NCBI GenBank assembly: GCA_018268955.1
Contig: JAFDVO010000010.1
Span: 1-64,000, forward strand
Source: Acidobacteriota bacterium
Lineage (GTDB): Bacteria > Acidobacteriota > Vicinamibacteria > Vicinamibacterales > CAVVIG01
Length of the DNA: 64,000 bases
Direction: 5' to 3'
The notes beneath the pieces were generated by a model. The model did no database searches. It was not told the origin of the DNA and saw nothing but the letters and a program-made list of their open reading frames with translations. Shown here piece after piece: positions 4,076 to 13,037 of this stretch. The position numbers and the translations under genes are program-made. Numbering within the stretch: the first letter of the stretch is position 1; each line of letters starts with the position of its first letter.

Positions 4076-5800
4076 TCACTTCCGGCCCTTCAACATCTCC
4101 TCGCGTTTCGCCCGGAACTCGTTTCCCGGCTTCCATTCAGGAATGCGGTTCGCCTCGGCGACGCGGTAGCCGACCGCGAGCAGCACCTTCAGGTCTTCAC
4201 GCGCTCCGGACAGATCCCAGTCAGGGCGGACGATGTCGCTCGGCTGGTGATAGTCGCGCTGGTTCCAGTCGGCACGCACGCGCTCGCCGAACTCCCTGGG
4301 CTTGCCCAGGTAATCGATGCCCTCATCGGGGTCCAGCGCCGGCACGCCCTGCTTGGCGAAGTTGAAGTGATCAGAACGGTAGTAGAACCCCTTCTCAGGC
4401 TCCGGGTCGGGACGGATGATGCGCCCCTGCTCACCGGCGGCGTCGCGCGCGTAGTCGTCCAGGTCTGATGCGCCATACCCCACGAGCGTCAGGTCGCGCG
4501 TGCGCCCGTGCACGTTGAGACCATCGATGTTGATGTTCGCGACCGTCCGCGCCAGCGGGTAAATCGGCGTGACCGCGTAGTACTGCGACCCGAGGAGCCC
4601 CTGCTCCTCTGCCGTCACGGCCAGGAACAAGATCGACCGACGCGGCGGCGTCGGCAGCTTCGTGAACGCACGGGCGACCTCCAGCATGCCCGCGACACCC
4701 ACGGCGTTGTCCTTCGCGCCGTTGTAGATGGTGTCGCCATTCACGGCAGGGCCGACCCCGAGATGATCCCAATGCGCCGAGTAGACCACGTACTCGTTCC
4801 TCACCTGGGGATCCCGTCCATCCAGCCGCGCCACGACGTTGCGTGACTCGACGTTCCGCAGCGTGTTCTTAATCGTCATCGACGCACGCACGCCGAGCGG
4901 CACCGGCCTGAACTCGCGCGACGACGCCTGCGACTTGAGGGTGCCGAAGTCCTGGCCGGCGAGCCGCAGCAGGTCACGCGCGCGGTCCAGCGAAATCCAG
5001 CCCTCGACGGCCGCACGCTTCATGTTGCGATCCGGCGTCACGAGGTCGAACTGCTCGCCCACCTTGGACTGCACGACGCTGAACGGGTACCCCGCCGGAT
5101 CGGTTTCATGGATGATGAGCGCACCCGCCGCGCCCTTCTCCATGGCGATCTCGTACTTGTAGGTCCACCGGCCGTAGTACGTCATGGCCCGGCCTCCGAA
5201 GGTCTTCGGGTCCAGTTCCCCCGGATTGTTCGGGTCGGGCACCGGCGGATCGTTGACGAGCATCACCAGCGTCTTGCCCTTGACGTCGACCCCCTTGTAG
5301 TCGTCCCAGTTGTACTCGGGCGCCACGACGCCGTAGCCCACGAACACCAGCTCCGAGTTGTCCAGGACCGCGGAATCGGCGACGTGCTTCGTCCACGCCA
5401 CCACGTCGTCCTTCCACGCGAGTCGCTGTTCCTGGCTCCCCTTCCTGAAAATCAGCGGGGCCGGGGCGGGGGTGATGCCGACGAGCGGCACCTTCTGGAT
5501 GTACGTCCCGTCCGTGTTGCCAGGCTTCAGCCCCATCTTGCGAAACTGGTCGACGATGAAGGCGACCGTCAGGTCCTCGCCTTTCGTCCCGGGCGCCCTG
5601 CCCTGGAACTCGTCGGACGAGAGCGTCTTCGTCTCGCCGAGCACGGCGTCCACGTCGGGGTCGGGCAGGTCGCCGATCGCGGTGCGCGCGACGGTCGGGG
5701 TTGGGCCCGGCGCCAGATCGCTGGCGGGCCGCTCCGCCCGGTTGTCGCACGCGACGCTCCACAGCAGTGTCGTGGCCAGTACGAAGGCAGTCTTCTGCAT
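4076..5800 (-). CDS. M28-family metallopeptidase lipoprotein
   Basis: A 574-residue secreted aminopeptidase-like protein. The start at 5800 gives a lipoprotein signal (MQKTAFVLATTLLWSVAC); an in-frame start 48 bp upstream would bury it. Residues about 60-150 precede a PA-type insert (LVMLVNDPPVPDP, then GAAGALIIHETDPAG). The di-zinc M28 core follows: YSAHWDHLGVG (zinc His), KDNAVGVAGMLE (bridging Asp), TAEEQGLLGSQYY (catalytic Glu and zinc Glu), INIDGL and YRSDHFNFAKQGVPAL (last zinc His). The C-terminus carries YHQPSD. It likely trims peptides in the periplasm. A weak -10 (CAGAAT) lies 6 bp before the start. Confidence 0.9.
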   Translation of the reverse strand: MQKTAFVLATTLLWSVACDNRAERPASDLAPGPTPTVARTAIGDLPDPDVDAVLGETKTLSSDEFQGRAPGTKGEDLTVAFIVDQFRKMGLKPGNTDGTYIQKVPLVGITPAPAPLIFRKGSQEQRLAWKDDVVAWTKHVADSAVLDNSELVFVGYGVVAPEYNWDDYKGVDVKGKTLVMLVNDPPVPDPNNPGELDPKTFGGRAMTYYGRWTYKYEIAMEKGAAGALIIHETDPAGYPFSVVQSKVGEQFDLVTPDRNMKRAAVEGWISLDRARDLLRLAGQDFGTLKSQASSREFRPVPLGVRASMTIKNTLRNVESRNVVARLDGRDPQVRNEYVVYSAHWDHLGVGPAVNGDTIYNGAKDNAVGVAGMLEVARAFTKLPTPPRRSILFLAVTAEEQGLLGSQYYAVTPIYPLARTVANINIDGLNVHGRTRDLTLVGYGASDLDDYARDAAGEQGRIIRPDPEPEKGFYYRSDHFNFAKQGVPALDPDEGIDYLGKPREFGERVRADWNQRDYHQPSDIVRPDWDLSGAREDLKVLLAVGYRVAEANRIPEWKPGNEFRAKREEMLKGRK

Positions 5801-5917
5801 CGCCTTATTCTGGCGGACGCCTGCGTATCTCTGCCAGCCACAAGGCACAGAACGCTTAGCAATGCGCCAGCTGTACAGGTATCCTCTTTCGTTGGCCTTA
5901 CTTATCTGAAGGACGTC

Positions 5918-6982
5918 ATGACAGCACGCACATACAAGATCGCGATCCTGGCCGGCGACGGCATCGGAAAGGAAGTCGTCCCCGCAGGTCTCGCCGCCAT
6001 CGAGGCGGCGATCAAGAACACCGGCATCACCATCGAGTGGACGGAGCTCCCGTGGGGCTGCGACTACTATCTCGAGAAGGGCCGGATGATGGACGAGGAT
6101 GGCTTCGAGCGTGCTGCGACGTTCGACGCCATCTACCTGGGCGCCATCGGCTCACCCAAGGTGCCGGACCACATCGCCGTGTGGGACCTGCTCCTCCCGC
6201 TTCGTCAGCGCTTTCAGCAGTACGTGAACCTCAGGCCGATGCGGCTGCTCCCCGGGCTCACGTCGCCGCTGGCGAATCGCACGTCGGCGGATATCGACAT
6301 GGTGTGTGTCCGCGAGAACTCCGAAGGTGAGTACTCGGGTGTCGGCGGCCGCGTGCACGTCGGAACCGGCCACGAGGTGGCGATTCAGACCGGCGTGTTC
6401 ACCCGCACCGGCATCGAGCGGATCGTGCGCTACGGCTTCGAGGTCGCCTCGAAGCGTCCCCGCAAGATGCTCGCGAGCGCGACCAAGTCGAACGCGCTCC
6501 GCCACGCGATGGTCATGTGGGACGAAGTTGCGGACATCGTGGCGAAGGACTACCCGCAGGTCGAGTACCGGAAGTACCACGTCGACGCGATTGCGGCGCG
6601 CATGGTGACGAACCCCGGCTCCCTCGACGTGATCGTGTGCTCGAACCTGTTCGGCGACATCCTCACCGACATCGGCTCGGCCATCTCCGGCTCGCTCGGC
6701 ATCGCGCCGGGCGCGAACATCAACCCGGAGCGCACGTTCCCCTCGATGTTCGAACCGATCCACGGGTCAGCCCCGGACATCGCCGGCAAGGGCATCGCGA
6801 ACCCGATTGGCGCCATCTGGGCCGCCGCGCAGATGTTCGATCACCTCGGCCAGCGCGACGTCCACGACCGGATCCTCGGCGCCGTCGAACGCGTGCTCGC
6901 CAAGGGCACCGTCAAGACACCCGACCTCGGTGGCAAGGCGACCACGAAGGAACTGGCAGCAGCGGTAGTCTCGGAAATCTGA
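5918..6982 (+). CDS. D-malate/tartrate dehydrogenase (isocitrate/isopropylmalate family)
   Basis: A 354-residue NAD-dependent beta-decarboxylating dehydrogenase. The start at 5918 has AAGGACG just before it; the frame is open far upstream but antisense to the peptidase. Family motifs are ILAGDGIGKEVVPAG, the WGCDYYLEKGRMMDEDG segment typical of the DmlA/TtuC branch rather than LeuB, GAIGSPKVPDH, RENSEGEYSG, DAIAARMV, NLFGDILTDIGSAISGSLG (metal-binding Asp residues) and EPIHGSAPDIAGKG (nucleotide loop). It oxidises D-malate or tartrate-like 2-hydroxy acids to keto acids with CO2 release. No leu or TCA genes adjoin it, which fits a catabolic single gene. True substrate not determinable from sequence. 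Confidence 0.87.
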   Translation: MTARTYKIAILAGDGIGKEVVPAGLAAIEAAIKNTGITIEWTELPWGCDYYLEKGRMMDEDGFERAATFDAIYLGAIGSPKVPDHIAVWDLLLPLRQRFQQYVNLRPMRLLPGLTSPLANRTSADIDMVCVRENSEGEYSGVGGRVHVGTGHEVAIQTGVFTRTGIERIVRYGFEVASKRPRKMLASATKSNALRHAMVMWDEVADIVAKDYPQVEYRKYHVDAIAARMVTNPGSLDVIVCSNLFGDILTDIGSAISGSLGIAPGANINPERTFPSMFEPIHGSAPDIAGKGIANPIGAIWAAAQMFDHLGQRDVHDRILGAVERVLAKGTVKTPDLGGKATTKELAAAVVSEI

Positions 6983-8616: not shown

Positions 8617-9486
8617 ATGGCCGCACGACCGACCTGGAAGGGTTACCTCAAGATCAGCCTCGTCAACATCCCGGTGAAGGTGTTCCCGGCGACCGACGCG
8701 AGCGCCACGATCAGCTTCAACCAGCTCCACGCCGAATGCCAGACGCGCATCCAGCAGAAACGCTGGTGCCCGCAGTGCCAGAAGGATGTCCCAAACACCG
8801 ACATCGTCAAGGGCTACGAGTTCGAGAAGGGGCGGTGGGTCGTCGTCGACGAAGACGACATCGAGAAGATGCGGGTGGAGTCGACCCGCGTCATCAACCT
8901 CGAAACGTTCACCGACGATGTCGAGATCGATCCGATTTACCTGGACAAGCCGTACTACCTCGCGCCCGACGGGCCAGTAGCCAAGGAAGCGTTCGCGGTA
9001 ATCCGCGAGGGAATGAAGGGCAAGGCGGGCATCGGGAAGGTCGCGCTCTACGGACGCGAGTACCTGATCAAGGTGCAGCCACGAGAACGTGGCCTCGTCA
9101 TGTACACGCTGCGGCATGCGAGCGAAATCCGCAGCATGGACGCCATCGACGAGCTGGCCGACATGCCCTATGAGGTGAAGCCCGCGGAGGTGGCGCTCGC
9201 GCAACAGGTGATCTCGACATTCGAAGGCGCGATCGATTTGGCGGAGTACCGGGACGAGTATCAGGAAGGCCTGCGCGAGATCATCGATGCGAAGGTCGCC
9301 GGCCGCGAGTACGTGGCCCCGCACGCCGAAGAAGCGCCCAAGGTCGTGAACCTGATGGAAGCCCTGCGCCGGAGCCTCGATTCGATCAGCGCCGGGAAGA
9401 AGAAGACGGCAGACGCCACAACCACGCTCGCGACGCCGAGGTCGGCATCCGCAAAGGGCTCGGGCCGCCGAACGAAGACCGCGTAG
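8617..9486 (+). CDS. ku: Ku-family DNA end-binding protein
   Basis: A 289-residue bacterial Ku, which threads onto DNA ends and recruits ligase D in non-homologous end joining. The start at 8617 is the ATG that gives the typical N-terminus MAARPTWKGYLKISLVNIPVK. Core features are FNQLHAECQTRIQQKRWCPQC with a CPQC pair, VDEDDIEKM, IDPIYLDKPYYLAPD and GLVMYTLRHASEIR. The end of the core has EYRDEYQEGLREIIDAKVAG. The basic C-terminal tail (KKKTADA, then GSGRRTKTA) is usual for bacterial Ku and binds DNA. No ligD lies in the window, so the ligase partner must be elsewhere. Confidence 0.95.
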   Translation: MAARPTWKGYLKISLVNIPVKVFPATDASATISFNQLHAECQTRIQQKRWCPQCQKDVPNTDIVKGYEFEKGRWVVVDEDDIEKMRVESTRVINLETFTDDVEIDPIYLDKPYYLAPDGPVAKEAFAVIREGMKGKAGIGKVALYGREYLIKVQPRERGLVMYTLRHASEIRSMDAIDELADMPYEVKPAEVALAQQVISTFEGAIDLAEYRDEYQEGLREIIDAKVAGREYVAPHAEEAPKVVNLMEALRRSLDSISAGKKKTADATTTLATPRSASAKGSGRRTKTA

Positions 9487-9598: not shown

Positions 9599-10753
9599 AT
9601 GACGACTCCCTTACGCGTCGGGCTGTGCGCCGCGACCGCGCTCGCGGCCGTGCTGCTCGGCCACGCCGTGAACGTATCGGCGCAGACCACCGCCGCCACG
9701 GCACGGCCAACCACACCACTCTCGTTCAGGTCCGGCAAGGAGATCTGGGAGGCCGGCTGCGTCTCCTGCCACGGAGCCGACGGCCGCGGCCAGGCAGACA
9801 ACCTGCGCGGCTTCGAGGTGCCGCCAACGTTCCCGGACTTCAGTGACTGCCCGACGTCGACCCCGGAGTCGAACGCCCAGTGGCGCGCCGTCATCACCAA
9901 CGGCGGCCCCGCACGCGGCTTCTCGACGATCATGCCCTCCTTCAAGGACCTGCTGACGCAGGAGCAGATCGGCATGGTGATCAGCCACATCCGCTCCCTC
10001 TGCACGGAAGCGGCATGGCCGCTCGGCGACCTGAACCTGCCACGGCCGCTCGTGACGGAGAAGGCGTTCCCCGAGAACGAAACGGTCATCGCCGGCACGA
10101 TCAACGCGCAGGGAGCAGCCGGCATCGGGTCGACGCTGATCTACGAGCACCGGCTCGGTGCCACGGCGATGTTCGAGGCCATCGTCCCCTATGCGTTCTC
10201 CAAGGAGACCGGCACCTGGGGCGCAGCGTTCGGCGACCTTGCGCTCGGCTACAAGCAGAAGCTCGCGCACAGCACCCGTCGCGGATCGATCCTGAGCGTC
10301 GGCGGCGAACTCATCGCGCCGACAGGGAACCCGGATGTCGGGACGGGCGGTGAATCGACCGTCTTCGAGACCTATGCTGCGTACGGTCAGCTGTTCCGTG
10401 GCCAGACCTTCCTCCAGCTCCACACCGGCATCGAACTGCCCGCACACCAGGACAAGCTGCCCAAGGCCTACTACCTGCGCTCCGCCGTAGGCAAGACGTT
10501 CGCCACCGACAGCGGCCATGGACGTCGCTGGACGCCGATGATGGAGGTCATCGGCGACCGCGACATCGTCAAGGGGGTCTCGACCAACTGGGACGTCGTG
10601 CCGCAGATCCAGATCCCGTTGAACAAGCGGATGCACGTGCTGGCGAGCGTCGGCTACCGCGTGCCGGTGAACAACCGCGACGGCCGGCAGCGCCAGTTCC
10701 TGTTCTACGGCCTGTGGGACTGGATGGACGGCGGGCTGCTGAAGGGGTGGTGA
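9599..10753 (+). CDS. Monohaem cytochrome c fused to a predicted outer-membrane beta-barrel
   Basis: A 384-residue protein. The signal peptide ends near NVSAQ (about residue 29). Residues about 40-145 are a class I cytochrome c domain with one haem site (CVSCHGADGRGQ) and a probable axial Met in IMPSFKDLL. From about residue 160 to the end, amphipathic strands follow (STLIYEHRLG, MFEAIVPYAF, GDLALGYKQKL, ILSVGGELIAP, MHVLASVGYRVPV), and the last residue is Trp, as in barrels handled by the Bam complex. The next gene, 5 bp on, encodes a pentahaem cytochrome. Together they look like an outer-membrane electron-transfer module. The barrel call is an inference from strand pattern and C-terminus; the cytochrome part is certain. 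Confidence 0.75.
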   Translation: MTTPLRVGLCAATALAAVLLGHAVNVSAQTTAATARPTTPLSFRSGKEIWEAGCVSCHGADGRGQADNLRGFEVPPTFPDFSDCPTSTPESNAQWRAVITNGGPARGFSTIMPSFKDLLTQEQIGMVISHIRSLCTEAAWPLGDLNLPRPLVTEKAFPENETVIAGTINAQGAAGIGSTLIYEHRLGATAMFEAIVPYAFSKETGTWGAAFGDLALGYKQKLAHSTRRGSILSVGGELIAPTGNPDVGTGGESTVFETYAAYGQLFRGQTFLQLHTGIELPAHQDKLPKAYYLRSAVGKTFATDSGHGRRWTPMMEVIGDRDIVKGVSTNWDVVPQIQIPLNKRMHVLASVGYRVPVNNRDGRQRQFLFYGLWDWMDGGLLKGW

Positions 10754-10758
10754 GGAGC

Positions 10759-12426
10759 ATGGCCATGACACGCACAGTCACCGCCGCCGGCATTGCGCTC
10801 TTCGGGTTCGTCCTCGTCACGACGCCTCACGCGCAGTCGAAGACCGAGGGCGCATCCGCGCCGGCGCATGTGGTCGACGTCACGAAGCGCAAGGCGTACG
10901 GCACGCATTTCCAGACGTCCGATCGCTGCTTCCCCTGTCACAACGGCATCACCACGAAGTCCGGCGAGGACATCTCGATCGGCATCAACTGGCGCACGAG
11001 CATGATGGGCAATGCCGGGCGGGACCCCTACTGGATGGCCGGCGTACGTCGGGAGATCATCGACCACCCGATGGCGGAAACCCTGATCCAGGACGAGTGC
11101 ACCATCTGCCACATGCCGATGATGCGCTACGAAGCGAAGCTCGCCGGGGGGCGCGGCACGGTGTTCGATCACCTGCCGCCCGATCCCGATGCGCTGCCCG
11201 ATCGCCTCGCGGACGACGGAGTGTCGTGCACGGTGTGCCATCAGGTCACCAGCGAGAACTTCGGCAGGCGCGACAGCTTCGTCGGCGGGTTCAAGGTCGA
11301 CGAGACGTCGACGCCAGGCACGCGTCATATCTACGGCCCGTTCGAGCCCACGGCGGGACACACGACGATCATGAAGTCGTCCTCGACGTTCCAGCCGCAG
11401 CAGGGCCTGCACATCCGCGCCTCTGAGCTGTGCGCCACCTGCCACACGCTGCTCACGCAGGCGCTGGACGCGCAGGGCAAGGTGATCGGCGAACTTCCGG
11501 AACAGGTGCCCTACCAGGAGTGGCTGCACAGCGACTACAAGGAGACCCGCAGCTGCCAGTCCTGCCATATGCCGGTCGTGCAGGAAGACGTGCCGGCTAC
11601 GTCGGTCTTCGGGCAGCCGCGTCCCGGTGTGTCGCGACATACGTTCGTCGGCGGCAACTTCTTCATGCAGCGCATCCTGAACAAGTTCAGGAACGATCTC
11701 TCGATCAAGGCGATGCCGCAGGAGATGGACGCTGCGGTGAACCGCACCATCGATCACCTGCAGGCGGAAGCGGCGACCGTCAGCGTCGAGAGCCTCGAGG
11801 CGCGCGACGGACGTGTCGACTTCTCGGTCGTCGTCAACAACCTCGGAGGCCACAAGCTGCCGACCGCGTATCCCTCACGCCGGGCGTGGCTGCACGTGGT
11901 CGTGCGGGATGCGAACGGGCGGGCGGTGTTCGAGTCCGGCGCCCTCGGGCCCACTGGCGCGATCTCCGGGAACGACAACGATGAGGACGCCGGGCGCTTC
12001 GAGCCGCACTACGCGACGATCACGAAGCCCGATCAGGTACAGATCTACGAGTCGGTCATGGCGGGGCCCGACGGCGCGCCGACGACCGGCCTACTGACCG
12101 CCGTACGGTTCGTCAAGGACAACCGTCTGCTGCCGAAGGGGTTCGACAAGCGAACCGCCGACAAGGACGTGGCCGTCCATGGAGAGGCGGAAGGCAATGT
12201 GGACTTCACTGGCGGAGGCGATCGGGTCCGCTATACGGTCGATGCCGCGGGCGCCAGCGGGCCGTTCACCGTCTCGGCTGAACTCTGGTACCAGCCGATT
12301 GCGTTCCGCTGGGCGATGAACCTGAAGAAGTACGACGCCACTGAGCCGAAACGGTTCGTCGGCTACTACGAGCAGACGAGCGAGGCATCGGGCGTGGTGC
12401 TCGCACGCGCGACGGCGACGCGCTAG
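10759..12426 (+). CDS. Periplasmic pentahaem cytochrome c
   Basis: A 555-residue secreted protein. The start at 10759 has GAGGAG just upstream, overlapping the preceding stop. A signal peptide ends near PHAQS. Five CXXCH haem sites occur in the N-terminal 300 residues: CFPCH (57-61), CTICH, CTVCH, CATCH and CQSCH. These resemble the cytochrome c554/NrfB-type arrangement. The C-terminal half (from about 330) is haem-free and beta-rich, with VVNNLGGHKLPTAYPSRRAW, a segment common at the end of such multihaem proteins. It is coupled to the barrel-cytochrome gene, so it probably passes electrons to or from it. The stop overlaps the convergent GNAT gene by 4 bp. Confidence 0.88.
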   Translation: MAMTRTVTAAGIALFGFVLVTTPHAQSKTEGASAPAHVVDVTKRKAYGTHFQTSDRCFPCHNGITTKSGEDISIGINWRTSMMGNAGRDPYWMAGVRREIIDHPMAETLIQDECTICHMPMMRYEAKLAGGRGTVFDHLPPDPDALPDRLADDGVSCTVCHQVTSENFGRRDSFVGGFKVDETSTPGTRHIYGPFEPTAGHTTIMKSSSTFQPQQGLHIRASELCATCHTLLTQALDAQGKVIGELPEQVPYQEWLHSDYKETRSCQSCHMPVVQEDVPATSVFGQPRPGVSRHTFVGGNFFMQRILNKFRNDLSIKAMPQEMDAAVNRTIDHLQAEAATVSVESLEARDGRVDFSVVVNNLGGHKLPTAYPSRRAWLHVVVRDANGRAVFESGALGPTGAISGNDNDEDAGRFEPHYATITKPDQVQIYESVMAGPDGAPTTGLLTAVRFVKDNRLLPKGFDKRTADKDVAVHGEAEGNVDFTGGGDRVRYTVDAAGASGPFTVSAELWYQPIAFRWAMNLKKYDATEPKRFVGYYEQTSEASGVVLARATATR

Positions 12427-13037
12427 TCCGTCGGCGCAAGCGGCTTCTCGAGCCGCACTTCGTCGCGCACCGGGATGCCCGCAAAGCCCTCGGGCGTTCC
12501 AGATGCATGCGCCAGCACGCCGCCGGGCACAAACGTCGAGAGCCGGTAGCCGCGACGCTGATAGAAGTACAGGGCCGGCAGGTTGTCGTTCGTCGTCGTG
12601 ACCAGCAGGCGGGCGAGCCGCAGGCGACGCGCGAGCAGTTCGGCCTCCGCGACGAGGTGACCGCCGACACCCGAGCGCTGCCACGTCGGGTCGGTCGCCA
12701 GCGCGACGATGTGGAGCCCGTCGCCGTGAATGCGGTAGACCAGCGCGCCTGACACGTCCTCGTGCATCGCCGCGACGAGCGCCGGCATCTCGTCGACGTT
12801 CATTACCTCGCCGAACGCGACGATCGGCGCGCGTCCGAAGTCGCGGCGGAAGAGGTCGCGCACCACCATGCGGTCCGCATCCGTCGCTTCCCGCACCAGC
12901 ACCGGCGGCAACGGAATGTGCGGTCGACAGGAGCAGACGACCTGCAGCTGCGCTTCATTCCAGTCCACAGCCTTTCCGCAGCGACCGCACCGGAGCACTG
13001 CCGGCCTTGCGTCGAAGTCGCCTGGATGCTGTGACAT
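12423..13037 (-). CDS. GNAT-family N-acetyltransferase with N-terminal zinc ribbon
   Basis: A 204-residue protein. Residues about 15-33 (LRCGRCGKAVDWNEAQL, then CSC) look like a short zinc-ribbon with four Cys. Residues 50-185 form a GNAT fold: IVALATDPTWQRSGVGGHLV is motif A with the acetyl-CoA pyrophosphate loop (Q-R-S-G-V-G), and NLPALYFYQRRGYR is motif B. The acceptor is unknown. Its start lies 4 bp after the stop of the lipoprotein gene (13042-13776), with AAGG nearby, so the two form a minus-strand operon. It overlaps the cytochrome gene tail by 4 bp. Confidence 0.85.
   Translation of the reverse strand: MSQHPGDFDARPAVLRCGRCGKAVDWNEAQLQVVCSCRPHIPLPPVLVREATDADRMVVRDLFRRDFGRAPIVAFGEVMNVDEMPALVAAMHEDVSGALVYRIHGDGLHIVALATDPTWQRSGVGGHLVAEAELLARRLRLARLLVTTTNDNLPALYFYQRRGYRLSTFVPGGVLAHASGTPEGFAGIPVRDEVRLEKPLAPTD

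Follow-up and report, generated by a model that had tools for sequence, protein, structure and literature searches.

A cytochrome c domain fused to a predicted 12-stranded outer-membrane barrel, with exchangeable redox partners, in Acidobacteriota

A single acidobacterial gene, ORF1, joins a haem c domain to a C-terminal outer-membrane β-barrel for which twelve strands are strongly predicted, and the gene behind it, ORF2, encodes a pentahaem cytochrome c. Both lie in the window, which here means the whole stretch of 64,000 nucleotides that was analysed (contig JAFDVO010000010.1). We tentatively regard ORF1 as a member of a class of fused cytochrome-porins, widespread in Acidobacteriota and Gemmatimonadota and so far undescribed, in which a COG4313-type 12-stranded barrel and a class I cytochrome c would work with interchangeable periplasmic partners, pentahaem proteins or cupredoxins, in the redox conversion of a small substrate at the outer membrane; we hold this proposal at somewhat less than even odds. 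To our knowledge, fused cytochrome-porins come only from Cyc2-type iron-oxidation systems. No description of a cytochrome fused to a 12-stranded barrel was found in the open-access literature searched. Fusions as such are already known (Cyc2, Cyc572), and it is the type of barrel and the arrangement of partners that are new. An earlier note on this DNA had read the two genes as a possible compact electron conduit. Its observation is confirmed, since Pfam domain matches, an AlphaFold2 model with 12 strands and fold matches place the haem c domain and the barrel in one protein; its interpretation is partly supported, and a redox role of ORF1 and ORF2 at the outer membrane is supported.

Table 1. 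Coordinates of the features discussed (window positions unless stated otherwise)
Feature	Position	Strand	Remarks
ORF1, monohaem cytochrome c / predicted 12-stranded outer-membrane barrel fusion	9599..10753	+	384 aa
ORF1 Sec signal peptide, probable	9599..9682	+	residues 1-28, ending ...NVSA, followed by QT; read from sequence
ORF1 cytochrome c domain (Cytochrome_CBB3 / Cytochrom_C)	9728..10003	+	residues about 44-135
ORF1 haem-binding motif CVSCH, axial His58	9758..9772	+	residues 54-58
ORF1 Met112 (in MPSF), probable second axial haem ligand	9932..9934	+	invariant 53/53
ORF1 EKAFPENE segment, invariant, directly before strand 1; possible lumen plug	10058..10081	+	residues 154-161
ORF1 predicted twelve-stranded β-barrel	10079..10717	+	residues 161-373; AlphaFold2, fold match, alternation
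GAGGAG, Shine-Dalgarno-like, overlapping the ORF1 stop	10752..10757	+	7 nt before ATG 10765
ORF2, pentahaem cytochrome c + C-terminal Ig-like domain	about 10765..12426	+	Sec signal peptide
ORF2 five-CXXCH region	10927..11568	+	motif scan
ORF2 CXXCH sites	10927-10941, 11098-11112, 11227-11241, 11431-11445, 11554-11568	+	
ORF2 Ig-like β-rich domain	11770..12423	+	residues 338-555
MtrB/PioB barrel loci outside the window	G000:C44:117252-119168 (L091); G000:C9:6737-8848 (L092)		

The ORF1 protein contains a single CXXCH motif, CVSCH, and ends in Trp384. Its residues 44-134 match PF13442 (E 2.4e-9) and PF00034 (E 3.5e-8), both above the gathering score. Among 53 relatives, Cytochrome_CBB3 (PF13442) is matched by 52 and Cytochrom_C by 48, and Met112, Cys84 and Cys135 are invariant. 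By analogy with class I cytochromes c, Met112 is the probable second haem ligand, and the domain as a whole is a CcoP-like monohaem cytochrome c with probable His58/Met112 ligation. Haems of the His/Met type are usually high-potential. The two invariant cysteines, Cys84 and Cys135, could form a disulphide. As the haem domain lies N-terminal to strand 1, the haem would face the periplasm if the usual topology of outer-membrane proteins applies.

The barrel, for which the earlier note had only the strand pattern to go by, was modelled by AlphaFold2 from a 53-row family alignment (mean pLDDT 89.6, pTM 0.83, most strand blocks 85-99, with low confidence for the N-terminal helix). This prediction for the 384-residue protein, which the earlier note had suggested, gives 12 strands across residues 161-373, if the short strand 206-211 is taken to belong to the hairpin 190-203 / 214-225, at its far end. 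The closest folds are FapF (5o65; Z 20.9, 2.6 Å, 217 residues) and the Pseudomonas putida COG4313 channel (4rl8; Z 20.0, 2.9 Å, 215 residues), with KdgM, NanC and autotransporter barrels ranking below them; the fold is of the COG4313/FapF type. A closed barrel in residues 160-384, the absence of which had been set beforehand as grounds for abandoning the fusion proposal, is probably present according to the model and these matches. Against PF13557 (Phenol_MetA_deg), which we take to be the COG4313-type Pfam family, ORF1 itself scores 15.1 bits with a Pfam cut-off of 22, and 18 of the 53 family members match at E <= 0.01 (best 7.5e-7). Furthermore, the family-averaged hydrophobicity of the strands alternates between inside and outside to a degree reached by only 1 of 5000 shuffles, and this pattern places six conserved charged strand residues (E161, E183, E193, K219, E257 and E316) on the lumen side without exception. 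The barrel had also been said to end in Trp. Trp384 is indeed the last residue of the chain, but the last strand stops near the invariant Trp373, 11 residues earlier. In the crystal structure of a COG4313 protein, the segment preceding strand 1 fills the lumen (PMC4493636). Since the EKAFPENE segment of ORF1 occupies the position of this plug, it is likely to act in the same way. Even without a plug, barrels of this type belong to a diameter class of about 10-12 Å (PMC4493636).

For ORF2, two start codons come into question: ATG 10759, 5 bp after ORF1, and ATG 10765, 11 bp after it. The latter, with the GAGGAG 7 nt ahead of it, is likelier, so the gap of 5 bp given in the earlier note stands for the first ATG and widens to 11 bp for the preferred one. 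Several relatives could start their second gene at an ATGA-type 4-bp overlap, which fits translational coupling of the pair. The N-termini of ORF1 and ORF2 both read as Sec signal peptides, and no lipobox was apparent in the ORF2-family N-termini examined. The five CXXCH sites and β-rich tail that had been described for this gene were found, the sites at residues 57, 114, 157, 225 and 266 and the tail in the form of an Ig-like domain. The AlphaFold2 model (mean pLDDT 85.5) matches the pentahaem cytochrome c552 of Thermochromatium tepidum (5ze8) over nearly the whole chain, with Z 25.3, rmsd 2.8 Å over 351 residues and 22% identity, the sequence alignment being too weak for placing haem ligands. 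The next fold match (Z 9.5) covers the Ig-like domain only. The NCBIfam equivalog model for ExtKL (NF040886) is matched by 27 of 31 ORF2 relatives (best E 1.8e-12), and ORF2 itself, at 23.5 bits, stays below the curated cut-off of 250. Outside the CXXCH motifs, only three histidines are invariant in the family.

A 2025 study united ExtKL and cytochromes of cable bacteria in one pentahaem (PHC) family, pointed out that it is structurally homologous to the protein of T. tepidum, modelled one haem of the cable-bacteria proteins as five-coordinate and remarked that the family resembles an archaeal cytochrome nanowire (PMC11976967). Since the fold, the five haems and the Ig-like domain match 5ze8, ORF2 is strongly predicted to be a member of this family. 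It shares the combination of five haems with an Ig-like domain with T. tepidum c552, ExtKL and the sPHC of cable bacteria. Unlike other PHC proteins, ORF2 has as its partner a barrel with a haem of its own; unlike extKL, which consists of two genes and is a proposed selenoprotein, it is a single reading frame with no in-frame TGA.

The fusion recurs with its invariant residues in dozens of loci in Acidobacteriota and Gemmatimonadota, and on this ground a chance or artefactual joining of two frames was rejected. Searching other Acidobacteriota for the domain pair, as had been proposed, we found an ORF1 homologue (E <= 1e-25) in 35 of 297 sampled genomes, 28 of which are in the clade of the window (E <= 1e-80). 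By their coordinates, 24 of these 28 genomes have an ORF2 homologue directly after ORF1. Six sampled genomes carry an ORF2-like gene without ORF1. In nearly all loci fetched from the window's clade with enough flanking sequence, the partner comes next, downstream and in the same orientation (some fetched loci are one genome counted twice). At one locus (L070) the pentahaem gene is upstream and divergent, and at four others, fetched on purpose (L078-L081), it is absent. One record with the pair, Acidobacteriaceae bacterium KBS 89 (L043), is not a metagenome bin. Around the pair, the 13-kb loci showed neither a further conserved gene nor a conserved surface cytochrome; a larger operon was rejected because nothing beyond the pair is conserved in them.

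Other genes lie close by in the window. Just ahead of ORF1, in the same orientation, lies a gene for a Ku-domain protein (8617-9486; PF02735, E 1.1e-42), and this neighbour is not conserved at other loci. On the minus strand, a GNAT acetyltransferase gene (12423-13037) converges on ORF2, the two frames overlapping by about 4 bp. Elsewhere, a search of plasmids gave no ORF1 homologue. A stand-alone ORF2 homologue (37% identity over 89%), with no barrel gene adjoining, was seen on the Sulfurovum mangrovi plasmid NZ_CP087125.1 (L089:5857-7524). The Paracoccus seriniphilus plasmid NZ_CP067130.1 (L090:3558-6569) encodes a hypothetical protein of 1000 residues, one stretch of which is ORF2-like, next to nqr genes and an FAD:protein FMN transferase. 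The neighbourhoods of these two plasmid genes gave no functional context.

The partner of the fused protein is not always a pentahaem cytochrome. In a sister clade of Acidobacteriota, which includes a few records labelled as other phyla, a cupredoxin-like gene lies just downstream of the ORF1 homologue instead. Its product ends in a carboxypeptidase-regulatory domain and contains the motif C-[DN]-T-H-x-W-M together with a His, in LHT, upstream of it (H...C-x2-H-x2-M), from which we infer copper binding. At one locus such a cupredoxin-like and carboxypeptidase-regulatory protein (L057:6930-7673) is encoded directly beside the ORF1 homologue; at another, two proteins of this kind flank it, one per side (L080:3459-4226 and 5432-6241). 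Within the pentahaem clade itself, two genomes (G100, G134) have a cupredoxin in place of the pentahaem protein, and in the loci examined from Gemmatimonadota no redox gene adjoins the ORF1 homologue. When 65 ORF1 homologues are placed on a maximum-likelihood tree, 7 changes are needed among the three partner states, compared with a mean of 25.9 after shuffling. ORF1 and ORF2 distances correlate with r 0.91, a value that vertical descent alone could yield. Across these lineages the fusion stays the same, and it is the soluble redox partner that is exchanged. This swapping of partners around a constant fusion is our strongest argument that the ORF1 haem trades electrons with a periplasmic partner.

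Among described proteins, the nearest in architecture are Cyc2 and Cyc572. Cyc2 has one haem and 16 predicted strands, and its outer-membrane location and Fe(II) oxidation have been shown; from the single haem on the periplasmic side its authors argue that Fe(II) has to enter the pore (PMC8406198). Cyc572 of Leptospirillum is a fused cytochrome-porin as well (PMC10654088). The two examples overturn the statement in the earlier note that known conduits keep barrel and cytochromes on separate proteins. ORF1 resembles them in its signal peptide, in one haem c placed N-terminal to the barrel in a single chain and in total length, and its haem is likewise expected at the periplasmic opening. As in Cyc2, the one CXXCH of the chain is in a domain at the N-terminus that continues into an outer-membrane barrel. 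The definition of Cyc2 further includes AXPXFAR[Q/K][T/Y] five residues before CXXCH (PMC8406198), and none of 53 ORF1 family members has this motif. Unlike Cyc2, with its 16-stranded, phosphate-porin-like barrel and short cytochrome segment, ORF1 has 12 strands with best matches to FapF and COG4313, a full CcoP-like domain with conserved His and Met, and a pentahaem or cupredoxin gene adjoining. Because motif and strand count depart from the published description of Cyc2, an assignment of ORF1 to it was rejected. With the COG4313/PF13557 channels and FapF, ORF1 shares the 12-stranded barrel (Z about 20-21) and, with COG4313, a segment ahead of strand 1 where the lumen plug sits; unlike the described COG4313/PF13557 members, it carries a cytochrome domain.

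We favour, at a probability of nearly one half (0.48), a model in which ORF1 is a fused cytochrome-porin of a family apart from Cyc2, ORF2 is its periplasmic pentahaem partner and a small compound enters the barrel to reach the haem. A small soluble redox compound would pass into the lumen, which is predicted to be lined with conserved carboxylates and is probably part-plugged by EKAFPENE, and at the periplasmic mouth would meet the haem c domain with its His/Met site. Electrons would then move between this site and the five ORF2 haems, or the cupredoxin in sister lineages, and continue to or from a periplasmic carrier pool. Because the conserved lumen charges are mostly acidic, the sequence suggests a cation as substrate. 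Several results strengthen the model: the downstream partner is a redox protein in two lineages, the 12-stranded barrel is predicted with confidence, the cytochrome domain is retained throughout nearly all of the family together with the lumen charges, and ORF2 matches a pentahaem c552 described as low-potential. It is weakened by the Gemmatimonadota homologues, which have no adjoining redox gene, and by the ORF2-like genes in genomes without ORF1. A further weakness is that COG4313 relatives are nearly occluded and thought to carry hydrophobic compounds (PMC4493636).

Another arrangement, rather unlikely in our judgement, would follow the ext system of Geobacter sulfurreducens. There, the outer-membrane porin ExtI, with 12 predicted strands, is encoded near the pentahaem protein ExtKL and is needed for selenite and tellurite reduction; in the proposed model ExtI admits selenite, with the pentahaem protein as candidate reductase (PMC5877670). 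By this scheme the ORF1 barrel would be a selective channel for a small oxyanion or organic compound, ORF2 a periplasmic multihaem reductase or oxidase, and the ORF1 haem would exchange electrons with ORF2. The proximity of a 12-stranded porin and a pentahaem gene, the broad match of the ORF2 family to the ExtKL model, the five-coordinate haem modelled in cable-bacteria relatives and the small number of invariant histidines all agree with it. Yet the ExtKL scores of ORF2 are far under the cut-off, the mostly acidic lumen would suit a cation better than an oxyanion (a point of mild weight), and other lineages replace ORF2 with a cupredoxin, which is not known for such catalysis. The two systems also differ in that ExtI is not described with a haem domain and the ext cluster has further multihaem and inner-membrane genes (PMC5877670) that are absent at ORF1/ORF2. 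The near occlusion of the solved barrel relative (PMC4493636) and the position of the haem domain before strand 1 would also suit a mere anchor: the barrel would only tether the cytochrome, and through it ORF2, on the inside of the outer membrane, and the pair would move electrons within the periplasm. We consider this improbable: a lipobox would be a cheaper tether, and the lumen face carries charges that are invariant across 53 sequences, which speaks for a role within the barrel, though holding a plug could also account for them.

The compact conduit of the earlier note, with haems running through the barrel across the outer membrane and electrons passing to outside acceptors, appears highly improbable. 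The barrel-haem fusion with a multihaem partner speaks for it, as do the relation of the ORF2 fold to the family with ExtKL and the published comparison of that family to an archaeal nanowire. However, a wire across the membrane finds no support in the model, where a narrow barrel with no haem site is joined to a single N-terminal haem that cannot span the membrane, and no conserved surface cytochrome accompanies the pair. The MtrCAB barrel has 26 strands and holds the decahaem MtrA (PMC8406198); ORF1 and ORF2 offer 12 strands, too few for a haem domain of about 90 residues, and a pentahaem partner. Two MtrB/PioB-family barrels, each adjoining an ORF with ten CXXCH, are encoded elsewhere in this genome, so the organism probably has ordinary separate-protein MtrAB-type pairs for extracellular electron transfer besides the ORF1/ORF2 unit. 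An MtrB-type conduit was rejected for ORF1/ORF2, as the barrel is of the wrong type and the genome's own pairs of that kind are elsewhere. A haem that would lie on the periplasmic side under the usual topology, a barrel devoid of haem and a lumen that cannot take the cytochrome domain together lead us to prefer the Cyc2-like scheme, with a substrate entering the barrel, over an MtrCAB-like wire.

The ORF1 family is solid and testable. If our reading is true, haems would have been joined to outer-membrane barrels on more than one occasion, and the fusion would be a marker for outer-membrane redox chemistry in abundant, poorly understood soil phyla that were not suspected of it. Since a multihaem and a copper protein stand in for each other around one barrel, comparison of the lineages offers a way to test the electron path.
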